From: a virus
DNA length: 55,683 nucleotides
Strand: one strand, 5' to 3'
Virus record (IMG/VR): IMGVR_UViG_3300027970_000033
Span: 1 to 55,683 of that record
In this document: piece by piece, positions 3,999 through 30,158 of the stretch
Layout: each line of letters opens with the position of its first letter
Numbering within the stretch: position 1 is the stretch's first letter
Notes under the pieces: generated by a model
What the model was told of the DNA's origin: nothing
The model's database searches: none
Seen by the model: the letters and a program-made list of their open reading frames with translations, nothing else
Made by a program: the position numbers and the translations under genes

Positions 3999-5279
3999 TT
4001 ACCTCCCCATATATTCTAAGGCTTCTTTTAAAGAAACATTACATGATGTCAGTATTTCTTCTGTTTTATAGTAGTCGTTTGATGAAAGATATATAGCTAC
4101 TTTATCCCAATGCTTCTTACATATTTCTTTTGTCATTCTATTGCTTGTATAAATATTCATCATAGTATTTGCTACTTTATTTAAATTGTAAGAATCTTGT
4201 CGATTCTTATACTCAAAACATTGATCGATAGCATCTAGCATGCCCAAGACTTGCTCGTCTGTAATAGTTTGTATAGTGTTTTGTTTAACCTCAAGTGGCC
4301 CATACTTTGAAATTACTCTTATTAAGAGATCAAAATCTTCGTAGAATAGTGGTTCTAATACTGATTCTAAATCATCACGTTGTAGACCTACAAATAAATT
4401 TTGAATATCTATATTGTCCCAATCTTTATGAGTAAGAGTTACAAACTTTAATTGTCTTCTGAATGTGTAGGAACTTCCTATAACGTGTTCAAAGAATCCA
4501 GAAAGTGATGCTTTTACTGCTGGACGTGATATCCCCATATCTAACTTTGCTACATACTCTATCCACAAGAATTGTAGCATAACCAATACATCTGTAAAGT
4601 TATTTACATTTTTTGTTAGATAGTATAGGTGTGATACATGAGTGAGTTGCTCTAGTTGGTATTGTACTATTTCTGGGTTTATAAAGTCACGAAATCTTAA
4701 AAATTGTTTAGCTATGCGTCGATCCGTTAAAACAAAGTCAACTAGTACGTCAGCAAGATCAGTGTCATATAATATACATAGTCTTTTAATTAGATTGATT
4801 TCTGCACCCAAAGCCACAACAAGAACAATCAAAGATTTGCGATGGTAGGGACGGAGAGTGAGTAGTTGTGTATCTTCAATATTGCTGATTGTTTGTAACG
4901 CTATATCTCTATTTTCTATTAAATAGAATTCATTATTTTTAAGATAGTTGTCTATATCATGGCAAACAAATTCTAATAAGAATCTATTCGATCCACTTAT
5001 TCTTCTCAGTACATCTTCATAAGAATTGAATACAGCCTCAAGAGATGCGCTACTTTCTCTACATATTTGGCGGGCTAAATCTCCAGCACCCACAAGAATA
5101 GCGAGGGCTACTAATGCGCGCCCTGTACTTGGTGTTATATAATCAAAATCTCTACTTGTAAGGCATCCTAATTCTAGAGCTAGGATTTCCTTGTCTTCCA
5201 TAATCTTTTCAAAGTGTGTGTCAATGTATTCTTTTATGTGTCTTGAGTTTAAAATCTCTTTCAAGTTTACGCCTATCAT
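3999..5279 (-). CDS. Unknown 426-residue helical protein
   Basis: No family recognised. The product is rich in Leu, Ile, Asp and Glu with many predicted helices and no membrane segment or Cys cluster; it may be a helical-repeat scaffold. An upstream in-frame ATG at 5357 would run into uvsE. The ATG at 5279 follows AGGGGTGAT at good spacing and is chosen instead. It lies 4 bases downstream of the uvsE stop and 4 bases upstream of the next gene, so it is part of the same early operon. Confidence 0.78.
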   Translation of the reverse strand: MIGVNLKEILNSRHIKEYIDTHFEKIMEDKEILALELGCLTSRDFDYITPSTGRALVALAILVGAGDLARQICRESSASLEAVFNSYEDVLRRISGSNRFLLEFVCHDIDNYLKNNEFYLIENRDIALQTISNIEDTQLLTLRPYHRKSLIVLVVALGAEINLIKRLCILYDTDLADVLVDFVLTDRRIAKQFLRFRDFINPEIVQYQLEQLTHVSHLYYLTKNVNNFTDVLVMLQFLWIEYVAKLDMGISRPAVKASLSGFFEHVIGSSYTFRRQLKFVTLTHKDWDNIDIQNLFVGLQRDDLESVLEPLFYEDFDLLIRVISKYGPLEVKQNTIQTITDEQVLGMLDAIDQCFEYKNRQDSYNLNKVANTMMNIYTSNRMTKEICKKHWDKVAIYLSSNDYYKTEEILTSCNVSLKEALEYMGR

Positions 5280-8724: not shown

Positions 8725-8872
8725 TTAAATTTTCCTCTGTTTTTACATATATATGATAGCCATTGCCCAGACAGGCATAGCACACTTCATTCTTTCCATC
8801 GAAAAGAAAGTAGCCGTGACCTCTGCACGGCTCACATACTTCTTTATGAGTATTGCTGTGTATCTCCTTCAT
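8717..8872 (-). CDS. 51-residue DnaJ-type zinc-finger protein
   Basis: Contains two CxxCxGxG repeats (CEPCRGHG and CYACLGNG) separated by 15 residues, the zinc-centre pattern of DnaJ and related RNA or protein chaperones, with little else. GGAGG lies 7 bases before the ATG. It overlaps the upstream gene by 29 bases and the phosphoesterase by 8 bases. Function unknown. Confidence 0.75.
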   Translation of the reverse strand: MKEIHSNTHKEVCEPCRGHGYFLFDGKNEVCYACLGNGYHIYVKTEENLNE

Positions 8873-9047
8873 CCACAAACCTCCAAGATTCAATTAGCTC
8901 TTGTGTAGAGGCTGGAGTCGTGCGAACCTTTATGCACGTTCCATCAGAAAAGAACTCATTGAACTCGACAACAACCCCATTGAGGAAAGGGGCAATTCTA
9001 CCCCTTGTCCCTGTAGCTTTATGTTCGACAAGTTGTCCCCATATCAT
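8844..9047 (-). CDS. Unknown 67-residue protein
   Basis: Beta-rich sequence opening MIWGQLVEHKATGTRGRI, reminiscent of small SH3-like barrels, with an acidic end. The ATG overlaps the DUF932 gene stop by 4 bases (ATGA), so it is translationally coupled. No function recognised. Confidence 0.68.
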   Translation of the reverse strand: MIWGQLVEHKATGTRGRIAPFLNGVVVEFNEFFSDGTCIKVRTTPASTQELIESWRFVDEGDTQQYS

Positions 9048-9991
9048 TGTAGTAATAACTCGTATGCATCATCAAACAGAGCTTCCCCCGCAGCCAGCTT
9101 AGCCCATCGGTTGGACTTGTAACTTGCAGTCTGTCGTCTTGGAGTAGTATGCCCCACATAGTCGCTCACAGCGTTTAAAACGCCCCATGCAGTGCCTCTA
9201 AATCGTTGCAGGTCATCCGCCCCATAGGCTGTGATGATGCCCTGTTTCTGGGCTAATACAGAAGCCTGAGCACGTGGAGTCGAGCCAGTTTCAATAGGGA
9301 GTAGAGATTCTAGAATTTCGTTGAAGCGATCTGGCGACACAGGCTTTTGAGCCAAGAAATCTGCTTCTTCTTCGAGTCGCACGATGTAGCGATCCGCTAA
9401 TTCTAGTGTTGATTGGGCTGTGTTTAGTCGTGCATTGATATCGCCCACATGGGGTGTGGACCAAGAGCGTCGCGCCCCACGTAGTGCAATGTTCAGAGTG
9501 TTCTGGCACACGACACGAATAGGCGTCATTAGAACGCGCACAGCACCTGTACCATCGTGAGAGTTAATAAAGCATAGATAAGGCTCAAAGGCATCACCTA
9601 GAAGGCTCATAGAGCGGTTCATGCGTGCCAACATCCAAACTTGACGCCCACCCTTTAGACTTCCCGCAGTTTCATATCGCACGTCACCATCGCCCACAAG
9701 CAAATCTGTGAAGGCAAAGGCTTCGTGATTCTGTACGATTTTATATCTGTCTGATACGATGCCCAGTAAAGATTGGTCTGAGCTGCGTATATTACCTACA
9801 TAACCATCTACTAAGAGTTTGACTCCTTCGTGTTCTAAATAGATGGGCGTTGGATTCACAGTCCAGTCTAGACCGCTGCGCCTCAAGGCTTCTGCTGAAT
9901 TTGGAGCTTCGTCTAAAACTTCGCCTAATCCATGCCATGGCTTTTCCCGAACTGTGAACATTGTTTCGATGTTTGCTGGCACACTACTCAC
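9044..9991 (-). CDS. DUF932 phage/plasmid-like protein
   Basis: Recognised as DUF932 (TIGR03299 type): FTVREKPWHGLGEVLDEAP near the start, SGLDWTV, SDRYKIVQNHEAF, then NSHDGTGAVRVLMTPIRVVCQNTL in the middle and a coiled C-terminal part. The family is widespread in phages and plasmids and its role is not settled. Starts at GTG 9991, overlapping the 57-residue gene by 8 bases. A second GTG at 9982 is possible. Middle gene of the 10.8-7.0 kb operon. Confidence 0.9.
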   Translation of the reverse strand: MSSVPANIETMFTVREKPWHGLGEVLDEAPNSAEALRRSGLDWTVNPTPIYLEHEGVKLLVDGYVGNIRSSDQSLLGIVSDRYKIVQNHEAFAFTDLLVGDGDVRYETAGSLKGGRQVWMLARMNRSMSLLGDAFEPYLCFINSHDGTGAVRVLMTPIRVVCQNTLNIALRGARRSWSTPHVGDINARLNTAQSTLELADRYIVRLEEEADFLAQKPVSPDRFNEILESLLPIETGSTPRAQASVLAQKQGIITAYGADDLQRFRGTAWGVLNAVSDYVGHTTPRRQTASYKSNRWAKLAAGEALFDDAYELLLQ

Positions 9992-11427: not shown

Positions 11428-12081
11428 CTATGTGAATATTTGTTGTAGGTCTGCGCCTTCTGCTTCTTTCTGGCGGATGTAGTTTACAAAGTGTTCTTCA
11501 CCAAATTCAGTTGGGCCCACATGGCCGAACTGCATACCTGTATCACAGTACATTGGGATTCCAGCTTCCTTGAGCTTGTAACAGAATGTCAAGTCTTCGC
11601 CTAGGCCTGGCATTGGATCAAAGTAGGGGCCCTTCACCTTATCAAATACTTCGCGGCTGATGTAGGCACATGCCATACCCGCGCCCTCAATCTCTAAAAG
11701 AGTGTTGTTCTGATATTGGATGGGGACTTGTAATGCGGGCTTGCCATCTTCGCCAATATCTACTTTTGTATAAAAGCATGGCTGATAGGGTGGAACTCGC
11801 TTAAACGCCTTTGCTGTAACAAAAGGCTTTTTAAAGTAAGCTAATCGATCAACTGCCTCGTGGTGAAAGGTCATGTCGCTGTCGATCATTACAAGTGCAT
11901 CATGTCCTGATTTTAGAAAAGCCTCAACAATACTTTCACGAGCTTGGTACACTAGTGAGTTTTGTACGAACATAAAATCGTAGCTATTGTAAGTTGAGCG
12001 ATGATTGGCTAGCCGCACAAAACTGATGAATGTAGGTAGCTCGACTGGTCGATGAACAGGTGATGCAATTAAAATCTTCAT
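11428..12081 (-). CDS. GT-A (GT2-like) glycosyltransferase
   Basis: Predicted inverting nucleotide-sugar transferase. Starts MKILIASPVHRPVELPT, has the DxD metal site in MIDSDMTFHHEA near 85, and the C-terminal GLGEDLTFCYKLKEAG acid motif followed by a His (QFGHVG). At 217 residues it is a compact single domain, as in phage enzymes that decorate DNA bases, virion proteins or host glycans; which is not visible. GGAG lies before the ATG. First well-supported gene after the 12179-12207 promoter. Confidence 0.82.
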   Translation of the reverse strand: MKILIASPVHRPVELPTFISFVRLANHRSTYNSYDFMFVQNSLVYQARESIVEAFLKSGHDALVMIDSDMTFHHEAVDRLAYFKKPFVTAKAFKRVPPYQPCFYTKVDIGEDGKPALQVPIQYQNNTLLEIEGAGMACAYISREVFDKVKGPYFDPMPGLGEDLTFCYKLKEAGIPMYCDTGMQFGHVGPTEFGEEHFVNYIRQKEAEGADLQQIFT

Positions 12082-12099
12082 GTGTTTCTCCTTTATTTG

Positions 12100-12168
12100 T
12101 TATTCTGATAGGACGATGTGCAAGCAAAAAATGACAAGAAAGAAAAAAAGAAAAGTCAACAAGCACAT
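12100..12168 (-). CDS. Possible 22-residue hydrophobic leader peptide
   Basis: ATG just downstream of the promoter with AAAGGA three bases away. The product is almost all Leu, Phe, Val and Ile and would span the membrane once. The spacing is poor, so it could be untranslated leader. Confidence 0.3.
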   Translation of the reverse strand: MCLLTFLFFFLVIFCLHIVLSE

Positions 12169-12178
12169 CTATCCTTTC

Positions 12179-12207
12179 ATTATATCATAATTATTATGTT
12201 TTGTCAA
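12179..12207 (-). promoter_or_regulatory. Promoter of the GT2-like unit
   Basis: TTGACA (12202-12207), 17 bp, extended TGA-TATAAT (12179-12184). Here the start region lacks the usual palindrome, and a different one (CATAATAATTATG) sits in the spacer. TTGACA holds the stop codon of the 12204-12845 gene. Confidence 0.9.
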
Positions 12208-12845
12208 GGTTCCCACTCGGGAATATTGGACTGTTCATATATATACTTATCAGCAACCTCAAAGTTTCGTCGTCCATCAACGCTGTATAGTGTGCTGTCG
12301 ATGAGGTAGCCAGGGTTGCTCTGGATGCGATGCGCAGTCCATGCAGGGTCAAACCATATGATGCGGTTGTTGGGGTAGGCGTAGAAGTTACCATCTTCTA
12401 CTTTGAACACGTGGGCACATTTGTGTTCGGGAGTTTCGCTGAAGTTGGTATCGAGAATGCTTTTGTCTTCCCAGCCCCAGTCGAGCGTGAACATATAGTC
12501 GCCCCAGAGTTTGAGGCCGCTAGGTGTGAGTAGCTGGCCGCGCAGTCCGCCCAGTCTGTTGCGGATTTGCACATTGATGTAGGGCGAGAGACAATCCCAA
12601 TAGTATACTTCGCTTAGTGGTACTGGCTTGGCGTCCTTGCTCCAACAAAAGGCGTTTAAGGGACGTCGGGTCCAGTTGACACCGTTTTCAAGGAAAGCCT
12701 CAAAGAGGGGCACACGATGCTCAATAGAGGCCACAGCGTGCACATCGCACAGACTGAACTGGCCCCAACCCTGAGTATGATTGTATAGGTATTCATTGCG
12801 GATGTAGCAAGTAAATGGTGGTAGTGAGTGATTAAGATATGCCAA
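12204..12845 (-). CDS. Unknown 214-residue protein, likely TTG start
   Basis: Soluble, Trp/Tyr-rich protein of unknown family, with a HAVASIEHRVPLFEAFLENG segment. The frame is open to 12959, but that would overlap the upstream gene by over 120 bases. TTG at 12845 follows GGGAGGG by 8 bases and gives the usual short overlap (14 bases). The last gene of the 15.7-12.2 kb operon; its TGA lies in the next promoter's TTGACA. Confidence 0.7.
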   Translation of the reverse strand: MAYLNHSLPPFTCYIRNEYLYNHTQGWGQFSLCDVHAVASIEHRVPLFEAFLENGVNWTRRPLNAFCWSKDAKPVPLSEVYYWDCLSPYINVQIRNRLGGLRGQLLTPSGLKLWGDYMFTLDWGWEDKSILDTNFSETPEHKCAHVFKVEDGNFYAYPNNRIIWFDPAWTAHRIQSNPGYLIDSTLYSVDGRRNFEVADKYIYEQSNIPEWEP

Positions 12846-18830: not shown

Positions 18831-19199
18831 TTAGGCAGTGCGGTACTTCATACGCTTTGCTTTGCCAATCTTCACTTCTTGCTTAGCAAGCATACCAGCT
18901 TCTACGAGCGAATTAGCGTAAGCAGTGATCGAGTTATATGCAAGCCCACCTTTATCGTTCTTCAATACATCGCCCAATGTTGCAGCAGCCTTATCAGCGA
19001 TTTCGTATCTATCAAGTGCAGTGCCAGAATTGACTAACACGTTCATGATAGCTGCTTTGATTGCAGATGCACGCTCTACTTCTTTTGAATTGACTTTTGG
19101 TGCTAGGAAGTTTTTGGCGAAGTACTCTACTGCAACTGCATCGACTGAATTCTCAGCAAACAATTTTTCTACAACCTCTACGAAAGTTTTTCTGCTCAT
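18831..19199 (-). CDS. Winged-helix-like protein, paralogue 1 of 3
   Basis: 122 residues with FVEVVEKLF at the start, a helical centre, AYNSITAYANSLVEAGML and a basic end IGKAKRMKY. The products of 20286-20660 and 22462-22839 share the whole layout. The helix followed by a basic strand pair resembles a small winged-helix DNA-binding domain, but no characterised family was recognised. Own promoter at 19256-19284; probably co-transcribed with tRNA-Asn. Confidence 0.78.
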   Translation of the reverse strand: MSRKTFVEVVEKLFAENSVDAVAVEYFAKNFLAPKVNSKEVERASAIKAAIMNVLVNSGTALDRYEIADKAAATLGDVLKNDKGGLAYNSITAYANSLVEAGMLAKQEVKIGKAKRMKYRTA

Positions 19200-19849: not shown

Positions 19850-19886
19850 CACTCATCCTTTTTGTTTTATTTTTCTTTATATATTA

Positions 19887-19915
19887 ATTATACAATAATC
19901 CAGCGTATCTGTCAA
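19887..19915 (-). promoter_or_regulatory. Promoter of the 19526-19849 gene
   Basis: TTGACA (19910-19915), 17 bp, TATAAT (19887-19892), followed by TAATATATAA, a variant of the usual palindrome half. Confidence 0.9.
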
Positions 19916-19918
19916 GCA

Positions 19919-20151
19919 AAAAATTTCTGGGGCACTTGCATATATATGCGGCTCCTGTAACAGAAGTGCGGCTAGCATTTTCAGGAAATTTCCATGAAAT
20001 GGAAGCGCTGTATTTTCATGGGGTTTTTTCCAGTGGTTGACAGATTTGGTAGGAATTTCCAGCGGAGAGCGGCTGGCAAAAAATTTAGGGAGGGGGTGCA
20101 TATAAAGAGACTGCGGTGGGCGGCAAAATTTCCGCATAAGGAGCTTATAAA
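19919..20151 (+). repeat. Bipartite motif cluster A (copies 2-4)
   Basis: Copies at 19919-19946, 20079-20106 and 20124-20151. Each has an A/T box (AAAAATTTCT, AAAAATTTAG, CAAAATTTCC), exactly 11 bases, then ATATATA, ATATAAA or TTATAAA. The stretch 19920-20250 holds no supported gene. Confidence 0.7.
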
Positions 20152-20163
20152 TTAACGCTGCAA

Positions 20164-20198
20164 CGCTTTAACGCACTAAAGCGCTAGAAGGCGAGCGC
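20164..20198. repeat. Double-hairpin element 1
   Basis: CGCTTTA...TAAAGCG stem followed by GCGCT...AGCGC stem with the 8-base loop AGAAGGCG. It follows bipartite motif copy 4. See the elements at 21098, 21222 and 21323. Confidence 0.6.
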
Positions 20199-20250
20199 CA
20201 AAATTTTCCAGTCCTTCCATATACTGGATGGTGACGCTTTCATGTAAATG

Positions 20251-20278
20251 AAAAGAAAAGCTGGGATTTTCTCCCAGC
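20251..20278 (-). terminator. Terminator of paralogue 2 gene
   Basis: GCTGGGA-GAAAA-TCCCAGC followed by TTTTCTTTTC on the leftward strand, 7 bases after the stop of 20286-20660. Confidence 0.92.
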
Positions 20279-20285
20279 CCTTCCA

Positions 20286-20660
20286 CTATGCGGAATATAC
20301 CACACGCTTTACCTTACCAACTCGAATTTCGTCTTTTTTCAAACATCCTTCATTTACCAGTTGGTTAGCATAGGCAGTAATGGAATTGTAAGCCACAGTT
20401 CCCTTTTCATTTACAAGGTATTCTTCGGCAAACTCACCTGCATCATACAAGGCATTTCCAATTTCTGTTCTATCCAAAGCCTTGTCAGTTTTTACAAGTA
20501 AATCCAAGATTGCCTGTTTTACAACTTTTGCCTTTTCCACTTCTTTGACATTAACACGTTTTGCTTTTACAGTTTTTTCAAAGTACTCGACAGCCTCTGC
20601 ATCAACTGGGTGCATCTGGAATAAGGAATTGACTACCTCGACGAATTTTGCTTTTGACAT
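20286..20660 (-). CDS. Winged-helix-like protein, paralogue 2 of 3
   Basis: 124 residues, very close to the 22462-22839 product: FVEVVNSLF, HPVDAEAVEYFEKTVKAKRV, ALYDAGEF, NEKGTVAYNSITAYANQLV and IRVGKVKRVVYS. The basic end with the preceding helix suggests DNA binding. Single-gene unit with its own promoter and terminator. Confidence 0.8.
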   Translation of the reverse strand: MSKAKFVEVVNSLFQMHPVDAEAVEYFEKTVKAKRVNVKEVEKAKVVKQAILDLLVKTDKALDRTEIGNALYDAGEFAEEYLVNEKGTVAYNSITAYANQLVNEGCLKKDEIRVGKVKRVVYSA

Positions 20661-20706
20661 TAAATACCATCTCCTAATTTTTTATTTGATTTCTTATTAC
20701 TCTTTA

Positions 20707-20735
20707 ATTATAACACACTCGATTGGGTCTGTCAA
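20707..20735 (-). promoter_or_regulatory. Promoter of paralogue 2 gene
   Basis: TTGACA (20730-20735), 17 bp, TATAAT (20707-20712). No start palindrome. TTGACA supplies the stop of a possible 11-residue ORF. Confidence 0.9.
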
Positions 20736-20767
20736 GTGCTTTTTTTTGGACTCCCTTGTCCCCACAT
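20732..20767 (-). CDS. Possible 11-residue peptide ORF
   Basis: MWGQGSPKKST, with GGAG before the ATG, read from the promoter at 20794-20822 and stopping in the next TTGACA. It is the only ORF this promoter would serve before the next one. Very short, so unproven. Confidence 0.3.
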   Translation of the reverse strand: MWGQGSPKKST

Positions 20768-20793
20768 CAACTCCTTACCTTTACTATATAATA

Positions 20794-20822
20794 ATTATAC
20801 CATACTTAATCTTGGGTGTCAA
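20794..20822 (-). promoter_or_regulatory. Promoter before the 11-residue ORF
   Basis: TTGACA (20817-20822), 17 bp, TATAAT (20794-20799), palindrome half. It lies in the end of the 44-residue gene. Confidence 0.88.
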
Positions 20823-20940
20823 GCTCATTTTCGCTGGAAATTTCTACAAAGTGTTTTGTAAATTCCAGATTTCCCCATTCATTGATTTCAATGTCAATAT
20901 AATTATAACCGAACACCAGTTCTGATTCGTGGGTACTCAT
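20806..20940 (-). CDS. 44-residue acidic protein
   Basis: MSTHESELVFGYNYIDIEIN followed by NEWGNLEFTKHFVEISSE and an acidic end: about 11 acidic residues against one Lys. GGAG precedes the ATG. Own promoter at 20973-21002. Function unknown. Confidence 0.65.
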   Translation of the reverse strand: MSTHESELVFGYNYIDIEINEWGNLEFTKHFVEISSENELDTQD

Positions 20941-20972
20941 TCAACTCATCTCCTTTTCTTTACTATATAATA

Positions 20973-21002
20973 ATTATAACACAAGGGGGCTTGGTCTGTC
21001 AA
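20973..21002 (-). promoter_or_regulatory. Promoter of the 44-residue gene
   Basis: TTGACA (20997-21002), 18 bp, TATAAT (20973-20978), palindrome half. Confidence 0.88.
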
Positions 21003-21097
21003 GTGTTTTTTTTATGGAAAAAATTTCTGGGGGAGGGTCATATATACAGAATTTACCACGGCGAAGCGATATAAAAGAAACGCTTTACCAAATTAAC

Positions 21098-21140
21098 GCT
21101 TTAACGCGTTAAAGCAAAACAGCGCTGGAGAGCGAGCGCT
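21098..21140. repeat. Double-hairpin element 2
   Basis: Perfect 18-base palindrome GCTTTAACGCGTTAAAGC (21098-21115), then AGCGCT...AGCGCT (21121-21140) around the 8-base loop GGAGAGCG. Confidence 0.65.
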
Positions 21141-21221
21141 TGATAGTGGGGGCTCACTATGTGGAAAATGGCAAGGCTGGTAAAAATTTCTAGTTCGAAA
21201 GCATATAAAGAGTGCTTTAAT

Positions 21222-21255
21222 GCTTTAATGTGCTAAAGCGCCAGAGGGCGGGCGC
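21222..21255. repeat. Double-hairpin element 3
   Basis: GCTTTA...TAAAGC, then GCGCC...GGCGC around the 8-base loop AGAGGGCG. The fifth stem pair is C-G instead of T-A. Confidence 0.65.
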
Positions 21256-21322
21256 CAATTATGTGATAGTGATAAGCCTGGTAAAAATTTCTGTAAGGCA
21301 AGCATATAAATAGTGCTTTAAC

Positions 21323-21356
21323 ACTTTAACGCATCAAAGTGCTCGCGGGCGAGCAC
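21323..21356. repeat. Double-hairpin element 4
   Basis: ACTTT...AAAGT, then GTGCT...AGCAC around the 8-base loop CGCGGGCG. Both stems have changed pairs that keep complementarity. Confidence 0.65.
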
Positions 21357-22403: not shown

Positions 22404-22421
22404 GCCTTCGCCTGCGAAGGC
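22404..22421 (-). terminator. Terminator of paralogue 3 gene
   Basis: GCCTTCGC/GCGAAGGC stem followed by TATTTTGCTTTT on the leftward strand. Confidence 0.8.
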
Positions 22422-22461
22422 CAAAGTAGACAAAAAAAAGAGGGGGGGGCACCCCCTCAGG

Positions 22462-22839
22462 CTACGCTGAGTATACGATTTTTTTGACTTTGCCAACTCG
22501 GATTTCGTCTTTTTTAAGTTTGTTCTCTGTCACGAGTTGGTTAGCGTACGCTGTGATTGAGTTGTAGGCGACTGTGCCTTTTTCGTTGATTAGGTAGTCT
22601 TCGGGGAACTCTCCTGCATCGTATAAGGCTGTGCCAATTTGCACTCTGTCGAAGGCTTTGCCTGCGTTGCCTACTACGAAGGCAAGAATCGCGTCTTTGA
22701 TAACTTTGGCTTTTTCGACTTCTTTTGTGTTTACGCGTTTTGCTTTGACTGTTTTTTCGAAGTACGCAACGGCTTCTGCGTCTACTGGGTGTATCGTGAA
22801 CAAGGATTCAACCACTTCGATAAATTTTGCTTTACTCAT
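22462..22839 (-). CDS. Winged-helix-like protein, paralogue 3 of 3
   Basis: 125 residues, nearly identical in layout to paralogue 2 (FIEVVESLF, HPVDAEAVAYFEKTVKAKRV, ALYDAGEF, NEKGTVAYNSITAYANQLV, IRVGKVKKIVYS). The middle has diverged most. Single-gene unit with own promoter and terminator. DNA binding is inferred from the shape only. Confidence 0.8.
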   Translation of the reverse strand: MSKAKFIEVVESLFTIHPVDAEAVAYFEKTVKAKRVNTKEVEKAKVIKDAILAFVVGNAGKAFDRVQIGTALYDAGEFPEDYLINEKGTVAYNSITAYANQLVTENKLKKDEIRVGKVKKIVYSA

Positions 22840-23796: not shown

Positions 23797-23893
23797 GCGA
23801 ACAAATTGTGAACATTTTGTGAACATTAAAAAAAGATATTGCAATTATTTTTTGGATCAATTTTTCGGTGCTTTGACGTATTAAAGCGCAAAT

Positions 23894-23913
23894 GGCCTCT
23901 GTGGACGGAGGCC
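23894..23913 (-). terminator. Hairpin after the 23933 gene
   Basis: GGCCTC/GAGGCC stem followed by a second small stem (GCTTT...AAAGC at about 23869-23888). The T run is weak, so termination is likely but not certain. The pairing of two hairpins recalls the double-hairpin elements. Confidence 0.5.
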
Positions 23914-24174: not shown

Positions 24175-24237
24175 CACCTTTTTTAAAATATTTTTTACTT
24201 TTTTTATTTTATTTTAATCTTTTTTAAATCAAAAGTA

Positions 24238-24255
24238 GCCTCCGCACGCGAAGGC
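24238..24255 (-). terminator. Terminator of the 24278 gene
   Basis: GCCTTCGC/GCGGAGGC stem with one G-T pair, followed on the leftward strand by TACTTTTGATTT. Confidence 0.7.
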
Positions 24256-24277
24256 CAAAATAAAAAAAGCCCAGATT

Positions 24278-24771: not shown

Positions 24772-25758
24772 ATGAATCTTGATTACGCAATTGTTGACGC
24801 TGCAGAGCGCATAAAATACATACAAAACTTACTAAAAGACCAAACATACTGGAGCTCTCGCGACCTACAAAAAATGGCTGACTACATCCTACGAGGCTCA
24901 GACGACACCATACTGACGCCCAATCGCCTAGTCACTATCAATCGCCGCGAAATATCCTTTCAAGGCTTGAGCGACTGCCTAGAGGGCGGAGAAGACGCTC
25001 TACACGCTCTTATTCGCCCCGACAAGCAAACTATACTCACACCTAAAAACAAAATCACACCTCAAGACCTAGAGCGTATCCCCGAACTGCGCAAACTGCG
25101 CGAGCGCATCACAGACTGGGAACTGCGCCTCGAACTCGCCAAGGGCCGCGAACGCTACAAAATTAAGCGCATGCTTATTGAGATGCGCAAAGAACAATAC
25201 GCTATAAAGCAGATGCATCGCAACCCTATGTATACAAGAGGAACATACAATATACGTGTACATACTTCTACAATAGACGAGCTGCGGCTAGACGTGCCCG
25301 AACATATTAGCGCCATCCTAGAAAACTACGCTCGCTTAAAGCAAGCCCTATGGGACGACTTGCATAATGACCTACGCTGGAGCCTGCTCGACCTAGAGCA
25401 CCTCATCGAAGAGTATGTGCGCGACCGCCAACCCATCTACTACGAAATTCTACTCATGAAAATAGCAGGCGATACAAACGAGGAAATACAAAATCATCTA
25501 GCGGAACAGTGGGGCAAGCAGCACAGTCAAGAATACATTTCCTCACTGTGGCGCAATAAAATCCCCGAACTCATCGCAGATGGCTATAAAGAACACTACC
25601 TAAACTGGGTGTACACCTATAAACTACGTGGCCTCTATAAAACTTGCTCGCGTTGCCTACAGCCCAAACTTGCGCACCGCCGCTACTTTGGCACTAATCA
25701 GGCCGCCAAATACGGCTTCTACTCTGTATGTAAAAAGTGCCGCAATAAAAAACAATAG
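24772..25758 (+). CDS. Zinc-ribbon protein, first gene of the late operon
   Basis: 328 residues, long helical body, then a C-terminal zinc ribbon (CSRCLQPK about 30 residues before CKKCRNKKQ). I associate this layout with Bacillota phage genes next to PhoH and terminase, but its role is not established. The position suggests DNA packaging or late regulation. Strong AGGAGG 7 bases before the ATG. Confidence 0.8.
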   Translation: MNLDYAIVDAAERIKYIQNLLKDQTYWSSRDLQKMADYILRGSDDTILTPNRLVTINRREISFQGLSDCLEGGEDALHALIRPDKQTILTPKNKITPQDLERIPELRKLRERITDWELRLELAKGRERYKIKRMLIEMRKEQYAIKQMHRNPMYTRGTYNIRVHTSTIDELRLDVPEHISAILENYARLKQALWDDLHNDLRWSLLDLEHLIEEYVRDRQPIYYEILLMKIAGDTNEEIQNHLAEQWGKQHSQEYISSLWRNKIPELIADGYKEHYLNWVYTYKLRGLYKTCSRCLQPKLAHRRYFGTNQAAKYGFYSVCKKCRNKKQ

Positions 25759-26919: not shown

Positions 26920-27981
26920 ATGTATTGTAACAAATGTGTGCGCGAACTGGGCGAAGACAACTTTTACCTAGATAAAACAGGTACACATATGCCCACTTGC
27001 AAAAAATGCATCACTATGCACGTGAATGTGCACGAACCCAGCACTTTATATCATATTTTAGAGAAAATAGATATCCCATTCATACCTTCTGAATGGGAGA
27101 ATCTTGTTAATAGATATGCGGCAGGCGACCCCAAAAAGAATAAGGCGACAAGCATAGTGGGGCGCTATATATCTAAAATGAAGTTGGCTCAATATGCGGG
27201 TTCTGTGTGGGCAGATACGCCACGATTTCTTGAAGAGCATAACAATCGCTTAATAAATCTAAAGAAAATGGAAGAAGAGCGACGCTTACAATACTCTAAC
27301 GCCACTGGTATGGGGCCTGTAGAGATTCAAGAGCTTGAGGATGACGAGGGCAATAAGTTTGATTTTGGCTCTACCATGACGCGCATCCAAAAAGACCGCA
27401 TGATACAAAAATGGGGGCGCCTGTACAAAGAAGAAGAATGGATACAACTGGAAGAATTTTACAATAAGATGCACGAAACCTATGACATACAGGGCGCCTC
27501 ACACGAAGACTACCTGAAAATGATATGTAAGACCAGCCTCAAGATGAATCAAGCTATCGACACTGGCGACATCGACGGCTTCTCTAAACTAAGCAAGAAC
27601 TATGACGCTATGATGCGCTCAGCCAAGTTCACAGCTGTACAAAATAAGCCAGAAGAAAGCAATTTCATCAGTTCTATTGGCGAAATGGTGCGATTGTGCG
27701 AGTCTGAGGGCTTCATTCCTCGCTATCACGCGCAAGAATCTCAAGATGTAGTGGACTTAACGCTCAAAGATATGACTGAATACCTTACTCGCCTAGTTAA
27801 AACAGAGCTTAATCTGGGTTCGCTCATCGAATCTACTGTTAAAATGATGGAAAATGAGGCCGAGCAGCAAAAAGACCCACAAACAATCGAAGAGGTGCTC
27901 GACGATAATGACTTTTTAGAGTTTAGTGACCTTCTAGATGAGGAGGTTCTGAGCGATGACAGAGAAATCGGGACTAACTGA
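26920..27981 (+). CDS. Putative terminase small subunit-like protein
   Basis: 353 residues with a zinc knuckle at the start (CNKCVREL and CKKC), a helical middle and an acidic C-terminus. It lies directly before terL and overlaps it by 26 bases, the usual place of the small terminase subunit. Identity rests mainly on position; it may be another packaging factor. Confidence 0.55.
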   Translation: MYCNKCVRELGEDNFYLDKTGTHMPTCKKCITMHVNVHEPSTLYHILEKIDIPFIPSEWENLVNRYAAGDPKKNKATSIVGRYISKMKLAQYAGSVWADTPRFLEEHNNRLINLKKMEEERRLQYSNATGMGPVEIQELEDDEGNKFDFGSTMTRIQKDRMIQKWGRLYKEEEWIQLEEFYNKMHETYDIQGASHEDYLKMICKTSLKMNQAIDTGDIDGFSKLSKNYDAMMRSAKFTAVQNKPEESNFISSIGEMVRLCESEGFIPRYHAQESQDVVDLTLKDMTEYLTRLVKTELNLGSLIESTVKMMENEAEQQKDPQTIEEVLDDNDFLEFSDLLDEEVLSDDREIGTN

Positions 27982-28510
27982 GGAACGTGTGAAGGCCGCC
28001 ATCCCTTCATTTAGAGAATGGATTAGCTTTTGGCGCGAGTATCCTGATATATTTGTAGATATGCTCACGCCACCCAAATCTAATTTTCGTCTTTTCTTTT
28101 ACCAACGAATATTTTTGCGCACAGCTATGAGGCACAGATACTGCTACGCAACCTTTACACGTGCCTTCTCCAAATCTTTTCTTTCTATTCTTTTACTAGT
28201 AATACGCTGCGTGCTTTTTCCAGGCGCTAAATTGTTTATTGCATCTGCGGGAAAAGAGCAAGCAGCTAACATTGCGCGAGAAAAGATAGAGGAGATAGTA
28301 GAGTTGTTGCCCCCATTACATAATGAGATAGATTGGCGGGCAGGTAAAACTCAATTCGCTAAGGACTATGTGCGCATCCAGTTTAAAAATGGGTCGCGCC
28401 TAGACATTGTGGCTATTAGAGAAAGTACGCGTGGTGGCAGACGTCATGGCGGCCTAATAGAAGAAGTGATCCTTGTGGACGGCGATAAATTAAATAGTGT
28501 AATTTTGCCT
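27956..28510 (+). CDS. terL: Terminase large subunit, exon 1
   Basis: Codes for the N-terminal ATPase part (185 codons): YQRIFLRTAMRH, a Walker A-like segment ATFTRAFSKSF and the motor motif GGLIEEVILVDGDKLN. The frame runs on as nonsense after VILP. Joining 28510 to 28746 gives ILP-LMNVSRR, as in related terminases. ATG follows AGGAGG by 9 bases. The spliced product has 566 residues. Confidence 0.88.
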
Positions 28511-28745
28511 CAACAAATAGGGGCCCTAGTAGTGTAAATTACTAGTGAAGAAGTGGGTGAACCCAGTAGCATGGGGTGTGCCGAAAGGTGCTAACGAGGA
28601 AGGCGAAAGCTAATCTCGTGCCAAGCCTTGATTTTTAAGGAAGGTGTAGAGACTATCTCGCAAGAGAGTAGGGTGGAGGTTGCTACCACTCGAAGTGCCC
28701 ACCAACCAATATGTTGGTTGATGAAATAGTCCATGTGAAAACATG
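28511..28745 (+). ncRNA. Group I intron 1 in terL (235 nt, no ORF)
   Basis: Exon end GCCU pairs with a GGGC guide (P1, U-G at the cut), and the next exon CUUAU pairs with AUAGG of the same guide (P10). Core: P4 ACGAG/CTCGT (28594-28598 and 28615-28619), P7 GACTA/TAGTC (28651-28655 and 28727-28731), P8 CTC-GCAA-GAG, and a final CATGT/ACATG hairpin ending in G28745. Confidence 0.85.
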
Positions 28746-28829
28746 CTTATGAACGTTTCGCGCAGAGCCGCCAATGGTGAGGTTGACGCCCAAGAAACGC
28801 TCAATAAGAGTCAAATATATGTAACGACT
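28746..28829 (+). CDS. terL: Terminase large subunit, exon 2 (84 nt)
   Basis: Exactly 28 codons: LMNVSRRAANGEVDAQETLN then KSQIYVTT. This fills the gap between exon 1 and the AGFKDSFAY start of exon 3, as expected for the conserved N-V-x-R-R to I-T-T-A-G stretch of this terminase family. Confidence 0.88.
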
Positions 28830-29096
28830 AAACTAATGGTCCGCATACCAGTAATGATATGTGATAAGCCTTTTAATTGCGGGGAACTCCTAAAGGACAA
28901 TCCGCAGCCAAGATAGAACAATAAGTTCTATAAGGTTCAACGACTATCTCGAAAGAGAGTAAAGCCACAAGCTAATGGTGGAAGAAATAGAGGCTACCCT
29001 ACAGATGAGGGTAAAGATATAGTCTGAACTGCATGGTAACATGCAGATGCGAGTAATGTCGCTGGCTGAGAGTTGCGAACTCAGTTGAACATATTG
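28830..29096 (+). ncRNA. Group I intron 2 in terL (267 nt, no ORF)
   Basis: Classic phage group I core: AATTGCGGGG...AATCCGCAGCCAAG (P4 TGCGG 28878-28882 with CCGCA 28902-28906), GGTTCAACGACTATC and GATATAGTCTGAAC (P7 GACTA/TAGTC, 28942-28946 and 29020-29024), P8 CTC-GAAA-GAG. Exon end GACU pairs with GGUC in P1. Intron ends in G29096. Confidence 0.92.
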
Positions 29097-30158
29097 GCAG
29101 GTTTTAAGGACAGCTTTGCGTATCAAAAGCAACTGCAATTATTGCTGTGGCAGATTATGCGGCCAGGCTCTTCATTTGTCTTTGGGGGCACGTGGCGCAT
29201 TCCAGTGCATCACAATCTATTAGACCGCGGATTTGTGCGCGATATGCGGCAGGATGGAACGTTCAATGATGCTGCTTTTGAGCGCGAATATGAAAGTATT
29301 TGGTCGGGCACTATGGAGGACGCTTTCTTTAATGCAGATCAATTCGATAAGTACAGAGTACTAGCACAACCAGAGACGGAGCACTCAAATAAAGGCGCTA
29401 CAGGCTTCTATTATATCTTTGGTGTTGACGTCGGGCGCCAAGGTTCTCAGACAGTTATTATGGTATTTAAAGTAAATCCACAGCCTCAGGGAGCTGCATT
29501 TAAATCTTTGGTAAATATATTTACTATTGAGAGCGAGCATTTTGAGGATCAAGCTATCTATATAAAACAATTATTTTATAAATATCTACCTAAGGCAATA
29601 GCGGTTGATGCGAATGGTTTGGGTGCAGGACTTGTAGATTATCTTGTTACAGAAAATACTGATAAGCGCACTCGCGAAGTACTAGCACCTTTTGGGGTTA
29701 TAAATGACGATCGTGGCGATTTTAGAAAATATTACGCCAGCAATGTGGCGACAGAGCACAATTTATTATATTTAATAAAGGCCAACGCTGATATTAATAA
29801 TGAGGCCCATGTAAATGTGGTAACTCAAATAAGTAGTGGTAAAGTTCGATTTTTAATCGACGAGCGCACAGCAAAAAATAAACTTATGGCGACAAAATAT
29901 GGCAAAGAAATGCTACCTGAAGTGCGTCAAGATTATTTGCGCCCATTTGTACTTACTTCAATTCTTAAAGAAGAAATGATGAATCTGCGCGAAAAGCGCG
30001 ATGGTAAAAACGTAGTATTAGAAAAGGCCAATAATAGAATTTCAAAAGATAAATTTTCTGCCTTTGAATATGGTTTATATTATATTAAAATACTTGAAGA
30101 TAATGATAAAAGAAAAAAAGGAAAATATAGAGCTAGTGACTTTATGTTTTACAGTTAA
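29097..30158 (+). CDS. terL: Terminase large subunit, exon 3
   Basis: 353 codons plus stop: AGFKDSFAYQKQ, FVFGGTWRIP, FEREYESIWSG and the RNase H-like nuclease domain (FGVDVGRQGSQT, AVDANGLGAGLVDYL, and a late Lys/Asp region). An open frame begins upstream at 29073, but those codons belong to the intron. The nuclease cuts concatemers during packaging. Confidence 0.9.
   Translation, partial: AGFKDSFAYQKQLQLLLWQIMRPGSSFVFGGTWRIPVHHNLLDRGFVRDMRQDGTFNDAAFEREYESIWSGTMEDAFFNADQFDKYRVLAQPETEHSNKGATGFYYIFGVDVGRQGSQTVIMVFKVNPQPQGAAFKSLVNIFTIESEHFEDQAIYIKQLFYKYLPKAIAVDANGLGAGLVDYLVTENTDKRTREVLAPFGVINDDRGDFRKYYASNVATEHNLLYLIKANADINNEAHVNVVTQISSGKVRFLIDERTAKNKLMATKYGKEMLPEVRQDYLRPFVLTSILKEEMMNLREKRDGKNVVLEKANNRISKDKFSAFEYGLYYIKILEDNDKRKKGKYRASDFMFYS

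Follow-up and report, generated by a model that had tools for sequence, protein, structure and literature searches.

Candidate hairpin-headed, antisense-oriented RNA-control cassettes in the early-gene gaps of an uncultured gut phage and its relatives

Known hairpin systems and the setting of the locus

Multi-copy cassettes in the early intergenic regions of phage genomes include the promoter-early stem-loops (PeSLs), in which a strong sigma-70-like promoter is combined with a stem-loop and which were reportedly described by Arbiol and colleagues in 2010 in the T4-type phages RB49/phi1. PeSLs are the nearest named idea to the hairpin cassettes considered here, with which they share the presence of multiple copies in the early region and the pairing of a strong sigma-70-like promoter with a stem-loop. 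The present cassettes are set apart in that promoter and hairpin are oriented opposite to the genes, the stem begins at the predicted RNA start, most copies have no T tract on the plus or the minus strand, and upstream there is a phased inverted repeat, while the type analysed in this study carries CTTTA palindromes in place of the promoter. The defining combination of PeSLs, i.e. a strong sigma-70 promoter with a stem-loop, is present in relatives of the phage, whereas the hairpins of the phage itself have no abutting sigma-70 promoter. PeSL stem-loops reportedly also act as effective terminators; of 60 cassette hairpins, 24 are accompanied by T tails, in each case on the minus strand.

RNA hairpins are also found right behind a phage promoter in the putL/putR elements of HK022, where the putRNA of approximately 70 nt forms two stem-loops just downstream of PL, and where the put elements are similar in sequence and contain functionally essential conserved residues (PMC9378689). 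In contrast to put, which is conserved and follows early promoters of the phage itself, the hairpins described below are hypervariable and antisense-oriented. Similarly, 5'-terminal stem-loops protect the ompA and Bacillus subtilis aprE leader transcripts (cited in PMC3997798). These stabilisers resemble the cassettes in the placement of a hairpin at or near the RNA 5' end and in the presumed precedence of pairing over sequence; however, they head messenger RNAs, while the cassette hairpins would head putative noncoding, antisense-oriented transcripts in many copies. Intrinsic terminators share with the cassettes an intergenic GC-rich hairpin (7-9 bp), but none of 60 cassette hairpins has a T tract on the plus strand and 36 of the 60 have none on the minus strand either, and their loops are mostly of 7-11 nt.

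The window, i.e. the whole stretch of DNA analysed, is a 55,683-base IMG/VR virus fragment from an uncultured gut phage. Its right half is filled by the late operon, which opens with genes for a phage sigma factor, PhoH, terminase and portal, and its left half by minus-strand early genes and a cluster of 17 tRNAs. Three of the early genes (18831-19199, 20286-20660 and 22462-22839) encode proteins of approximately 122-125 aa with no PHROG match, and the latter two are clear paralogues (DNA ~73-76% identical). Searches of named phages with the sigma or portal protein identified the Enterococcus phage H1/EF1/VRE9 group, the closest named relatives (40-41% identity for sigma factor and portal), and Brevibacillus phage Sundance, which carry different palindromes in the region equivalent to that of the window's elements. 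At the DNA level, named phages matched the window in tRNAs only, and no relatives were found via the protein encoded at 20286-20660. Additionally, the terminase large-subunit gene is split by a group I intron (28813-29046) into two open reading frames (27956-28537 and 29073-30158); in Enterococcus phage VRE9_2 a homing-endonuclease gene directly follows the first terminase half that matches the window's.

The elements of the window and their two stems

The initial annotation had described four double hairpins within 20164-21356 as a selected fold, with covariation in both stems, and as a possibly undescribed element. All four are present with the pairings given (A-D, Table 1). When the plus and minus strands of the entire window were scanned mechanically, the four were recovered together with a fifth (E), chance matches and one tRNA. 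The five elements observed in 2.5 kb of noncoding DNA compare with a mean of 0.04 and a maximum of one in 1000 dinucleotide shuffles, confirming that they are genuine and exceed chance. The second stems of A-D read GCGCT/AGCGC (B: AGCGCT/AGCGCT), GCGCC/GGCGC and GTGCT/AGCAC with 8-nt loops; in D, additional pairing can lengthen the stem to 7 bp and shrink the loop to 4 nt. C and D form a tandem 101-bp repeat. Two possible degenerate copies (F and G) were noted by eye; neither was returned by the mechanical double-hairpin scan, and F has no clear CTTTA palindrome. A motif, AAATTTC-N10-GCATATAAA, which recurs in four exact copies against 0.12 expected, was rejected as a collection-wide marker: none of its 71 IMG/VR matches has further sequence in common with the window elements.

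Table 1. Features of the window
Feature	Position	Strand	Sequence or remark	Basis
Element A, whole	20164..20198	+		sequence and mechanical scan
A palindrome	20164-20183	+	CGCTTTA-ACGCAC-TAAAGCG	
A hairpin	20181-20198	+	GCGCT[AGAAGGCG]AGCGC	
Element B, whole	21098..21140	+		sequence and mechanical scan
B palindrome	21098-21115	+	GCTTTAACGCGTTAAAGC	
B hairpin	21121-21140	+	AGCGCT[GGAGAGCG]AGCGCT	
Element C, whole	21222..21255	+		sequence and mechanical scan
C palindrome	21222-21239	+	GCTTTA-ATGTGC-TAAAGC	
C hairpin	21238-21255	+	GCGCC[AGAGGGCG]GGCGC	
Element D, whole	21322..21356	+		sequence and mechanical scan
D palindrome	21322-21341	+	CACTTT-AACGCATC-AAAGTG	
D hairpin	21339-21356	+	GTGCT[CGCGGGCG]AGCAC	
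Element E, whole	23870..23913	+	absent from the initial annotation	sequence and mechanical scan
E palindrome	23870-23887	+	GCTTTGACGTATTAAAGC	
E hairpin	23894-23913	+	GGCCTC[TGTGGACG]GAGGCC	
Possible degenerate copy F	22406..22425	.	GCCTT[CGCCTGCG]AAGGC, behind minus-strand terminator	by eye
Possible degenerate copy G	24224..24256	.	CTTTT..AAAAG then GCCTCCGCACGCGAAGGC, behind minus-strand terminator	by eye
Motif 13 nt ahead of A	20126..20151	+	AAATTTC-N10-GCTTATAAA	
Motif ahead of C	21184..21209	+	AAATTTC-N10-GCATATAAA	
Motif ahead of D	21285..21310	+	AAATTTC-N10-GCATATAAA	
Motif copies, hairpin not directly behind	19921-19946, 20081-20106, 21021-21046		AAATTTC-N10-GCATATAAA	
Promoter-like pair, early, adjoining element cluster	20965..21001	-	TTGACA/TATAAT	read from sequence
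Further promoter-like pairs	20699-20735, 20786-20822, 19879-19915	-	TTGACA/TATAAT	read from sequence
Phage sigma-factor gene, head of late operon	24772..25758	+	phrog_5767, E 1.1e-50	

When A, C and D are aligned by anchoring on their flanks, stem 2 is paired in 15 of 15 cells and displays two double changes, a score matched by 42 of 500 shuffles, three sequences being too few for significance. Stem 1 displays a single double change and one unpaired cell, and its score is matched by 170 of 500 shuffles. As the two stems overlap in A, C and D, the single C-to-T change of D is scored in both. In a search of Rfam (4227 families, gathering threshold), the window matched tRNAs and a group I intron and no other family, the sole match close to the elements, to group II, was below threshold (E 0.14), and six relatives gave no match; the suggestion of an undescribed element is borne out to this extent, and literature searches did not find a description of such elements.

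Stem 1 was resolved as a 16-bp site, CTTTA-N6-TRAAG, for which 90 sites were collected from the window and 19 relatives (20 loci). They usually stand in the setting of a direct repeat, TTTARCR-CTTTA, and often form arrays that lack a GC hairpin. Covariation is absent from its variable inner pair (p4/p13, T/C-A/G; P = 0.32), contrary to the original claim that this stem covaries; the remaining pairs gave P = 0.035 (p5/p12) and P = 0.28 (p6/p11), and the flanking pair alone covaries clearly (-1/+1, P = 0.001). A strand test based on G-U wobbles leans towards the plus strand (29 versus 9), though it is confounded by the fixed orientation of the motif. Furthermore, relative L122 contains a 500-bp array of CTTTA sites (8750-9250, beside the late operon) without a GC hairpin, indicating that the 'double hairpin' consists of two separable modules. 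Given this array and the variable inner pair without covariation, stem 1 behaves as a DNA site, and the palindrome looks like a DNA-binding or promoter-slot site. Where the two modules occur together, 16 hairpins are found on the plus (downstream) side of the CTTTA sites, compared to two on the mirrored side. The T4 MotA middle promoter (TGCTTTA ~12 bp upstream of TATAAT) was rejected as an identity for the site, as TGCTTTA occurs in C and D with no TATAAT following; CIRCE, the T4 late promoter (TATAAATA) and REP elements showed resemblance only.

Promoter-anchored hairpins of related phages

Relatives were collected with a sigma-factor profile: 80 loci come from IMG/VR, and a further 13 from metagenome-assembled genomes that carry labels such as Erysipelotrichaceae, Mollicutes, Bacilli and Clostridia. 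In the early regions of the relatives, dozens of GC-rich hairpins occupy the gaps between minus-strand genes; their stems measure 8-13 bp compared to 5-6 bp in the window, and many are located directly behind a strong plus-strand sigma-70 promoter in the arrangement TTGACAAAA-N-TGTGGTATAATGGAATTTC-hairpin-CGCC. As the unanchored list of GC hairpins was chosen by pairing, which renders its covariation circular, evidence was restricted to promoter- and operator-anchored sets. The first 45 nt behind the relatives' plus-strand promoters lacking a ribosome-binding site (n = 73) have a mean dG of -16.5 kcal/mol (z -2.3), compared to -1.9 (z 0) for their minus-strand gene promoters. A promoter-only pattern, in which the hairpin was not used, identified 18 distinct sites in IMG/VR, some of them known before, with a mean dG of -18.6; z was below -2 at 13 of these, and all 18 are oriented opposite to the local coding.

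Upstream of the relatives' hairpin promoters lies an inverted repeat, TTGCACAAA-TTTYGGGAT-TTTGTGCAA, which on its own retrieved 105 distinct sites where approximately seven were expected by chance (our estimate). The lengths of the repeat fall mainly at 30 and at 40-41 bp, a difference of one helical turn that speaks for a putative bound protein. A sigma-70 promoter follows at 89 of the 105 sites, and at 100 of them same-strand local coding does not exceed opposite-strand coding. Folding below -12 kcal/mol was observed for 92% of the 89 operator-anchored promoters as against 42% of shuffles; 60 of the 89 contain a perfect GC stem, which in 43 of the 60 starts 7-8 nt after the -10 box, the predicted position of the RNA start. 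Given this placement, it is likely that the relatives make RNA from the hairpin units. A plus-strand intrinsic terminator is found near 4 of 32 predicted hairpin RNAs, with a background of 5%, and this scarcity counts against the RNA reading.

Compensatory changes were observed between near-identical promoter-anchored neighbours, namely L150 1766/2914, L188/L190, L154/L167 and L176/L225; the stem changes from GGCGC..GCGCC to GGCGT..ACGCC in L188/L190, and from TGGCGCGC..GCGCGCCA to CAGCGCGC..GCGCGCTG with an unchanged loop in L150. Additionally, the two orthologous units common to L120, L146, L154 and L167 have double changes at two pairs, and none of their pairs is broken. On these pairing-independent anchors, stem 2 retains its pairing although its sequence varies. 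The notion of the double hairpin as a selected fold is thus upheld for the second stem, mainly through the relatives, and falls for the first.

Several links connect the window elements to these units. The hairpin CGGCGCGCC[TGGACCGTG]GGCGCGCCG stands behind a sigma-70 promoter in L105 and behind CTTTA palindromes in L121; L113 and L130 contain both sigma-70-type and CTTTA-type units; in L105 and L133 a CTTTA palindrome follows the inverted repeat at the usual position of the sigma-70 promoter; and the core AGCGYTGGAGAGCG is common to window hairpin B and an L123 hairpin at 5256. On the strength of these links the window elements were assigned to the same cassette family, as a probable variant whose promoter slot is filled by CTTTA palindromes; this assignment is the weakest step of the argument. 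The exact double-hairpin pattern had no matches in IMG/VR, and a search with CTTTA plus a window-like hairpin core matched the phage of L123 only. Neither a sigma-70 promoter in front of the window hairpins nor an inverted repeat with TTGCACAAA was found in the window. Its hairpins have no T tract on the plus strand and fall outside the definition of an intrinsic terminator; on the minus strand their tails read CTTTAGTGC, GTTTTGCTT, TTTAGCACA, TTTGATGCG and ATTTGCGCT, of which two of the five pass a loose 4-of-6 T count.

Proposed mechanism, competing explanations and other repeats

Our leading, if tentative, interpretation is that the elements are hairpin-headed, antisense-oriented RNA-control cassettes, in which a DNA palindrome would be combined with a hairpin at the RNA start. 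Each element would represent one copy of a two-module intergenic control cassette between minus-strand early genes. The CTTTA-N6-TRAAG module would act as a DNA site in the promoter slot, either as an operator or as a promoter of a type that the host does not use, and might be bound by a protein. With the early genes on one strand, transcription on the other would begin in the GC-rich hairpin, such that the RNA, which would run against the neighbouring early gene, starts with a closed hairpin. This 5'-terminal hairpin could shield a short, antisense-oriented noncoding transcript against 5' decay, and the stem sequence could drift freely provided that pairing holds. Transcription of the window copies, from a start site as in the relatives, is part of this proposal, and the missing sigma-70 promoter and inverted repeat and the weak 5-6 bp hairpins of the window count against it.

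The main rival, which we regard as unlikely, holds that the GC hairpin serves the minus strand, as an insulator or a second terminator placed after the terminator that each early gene already has, and that the CTTTA palindromes are operators of the next early promoter, plus-strand RNA being irrelevant. The order on the minus strand (gene, terminator, GC hairpin, palindromes, promoter) fits this explanation, as does a minus-strand terminator to the right of the hairpin in 37 of 60 units. T-rich tails accompany 24 of 60 hairpins on the minus strand and none of 60 on the plus strand, which is what a terminator reading predicts and counts against the RNA cassette. In L105 (679 and 5188), L104 (2859) and L150 (813), moreover, the -10 box of a minus-strand promoter is followed at no more than 3-4 nt by a GC hairpin with T5-6, a textbook terminator into which the promoter apparently leads directly. 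However, most hairpins, those of the window among them, are missing a real T tract, and a terminator role leaves unaccounted for both the fixed distance of 7-8 nt that separates the stem start from the preceding -10 box of a consensus promoter on the opposite strand and the phased operator at those promoters.

The other explanations are less likely. Mobile or recombinational intergenic cassettes of the MITE, REP or PeSL kind, in which the hairpin serves mobility or recombination rather than RNA, would account for the multi-copy, intergenic and modular nature of the elements, the identical hairpin in the differing contexts of L105 and L121, and the tandem repeat of C and D; we consider this improbable, as copy-to-copy stem divergence is disfavoured by homologous recombination and the orientation to genes is near-invariant (100/105), and as L120, L146, L154 and L167 already have two units in orthologous places. 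Somewhat more improbable is a replication origin or partition site, at which CTTTA sites would be initiator-bound iterons and the hairpin an aid to strand opening or priming. While the dense L122 array beside the late operon, helically phased inverted repeats next to a promoter and a big palindrome-rich noncoding region in the same place in Enterococcus phage H1 are consistent with such a site, at least five cassettes over up to ~10 kb in single phages exceed the needs of an origin, and every cassette is bound to an intergenic gap among early genes. Antitermination as by HK022 put, by which 5' hairpins would load onto RNA polymerase and allow plus-strand transcripts to cross the early region, seems very improbable. 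Structured RNA does follow immediately behind strong promoters, and L092 (1186-6521), the sole two-hairpin case noted, has a put-like layout in which two short hairpins, with loops of 3 nt and one or no base between them, come after the promoters; yet most units have a single hairpin, the promoters face against the genes, and the stems are hypervariable where put elements are similar in sequence with essential conserved residues (PMC9378689).

Extending the RNA-control cassette beyond the window, we suggest with still greater reserve that a large clade of uncultured gut phages carries regulated multi-copy noncoding RNA genes, each with a phased operator, an antisense consensus promoter and a start-site hairpin under pairing-only selection, whose stem varies among copies, possibly yielding locus-specific antisense RNAs. 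The window would contain a variant in which CTTTA palindromes took the place of operator and promoter. The noncoding DNA of uncultured gut phages is mostly unannotated, and a three-part cassette of this kind is recognisable by sequence in many genomes and predicts antisense-strand start sites at a fixed distance as well as a shared regulator. If true, this would enlarge the phage noncoding RNAs or insulators by one family and offer another reading of early-gene control in gut siphophage-like viruses of 100-200 kb.

Other repeats were observed in the relatives. L111 (1-6500) contains about a dozen copies of a different composite repeat (TTTTGA-N8-TCAAAA, CGCCCGGGCG, GTTAG..CTAAC), each adjoining the -35 box of a minus-strand promoter. 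In Enterococcus phage H1 (L078), a palindrome-rich noncoding stretch of 1.3 kb ahead of the late operon (11483-12802) contains repeated AATAACAAGTGTTATT and TGTGAAATATTTCACA and two TGTAAGCGCTTACA sites resembling host catabolite-control (cre) boxes. Furthermore, in L078 (4787-4834), L080 (2125-2172) and L154 (4306-4349) the TTGACA -35 box of an early promoter is located within the loop of a strong hairpin, as exemplified by GGTAAGGGG-TTGACAAA-CCCCTTACC on the minus strand.
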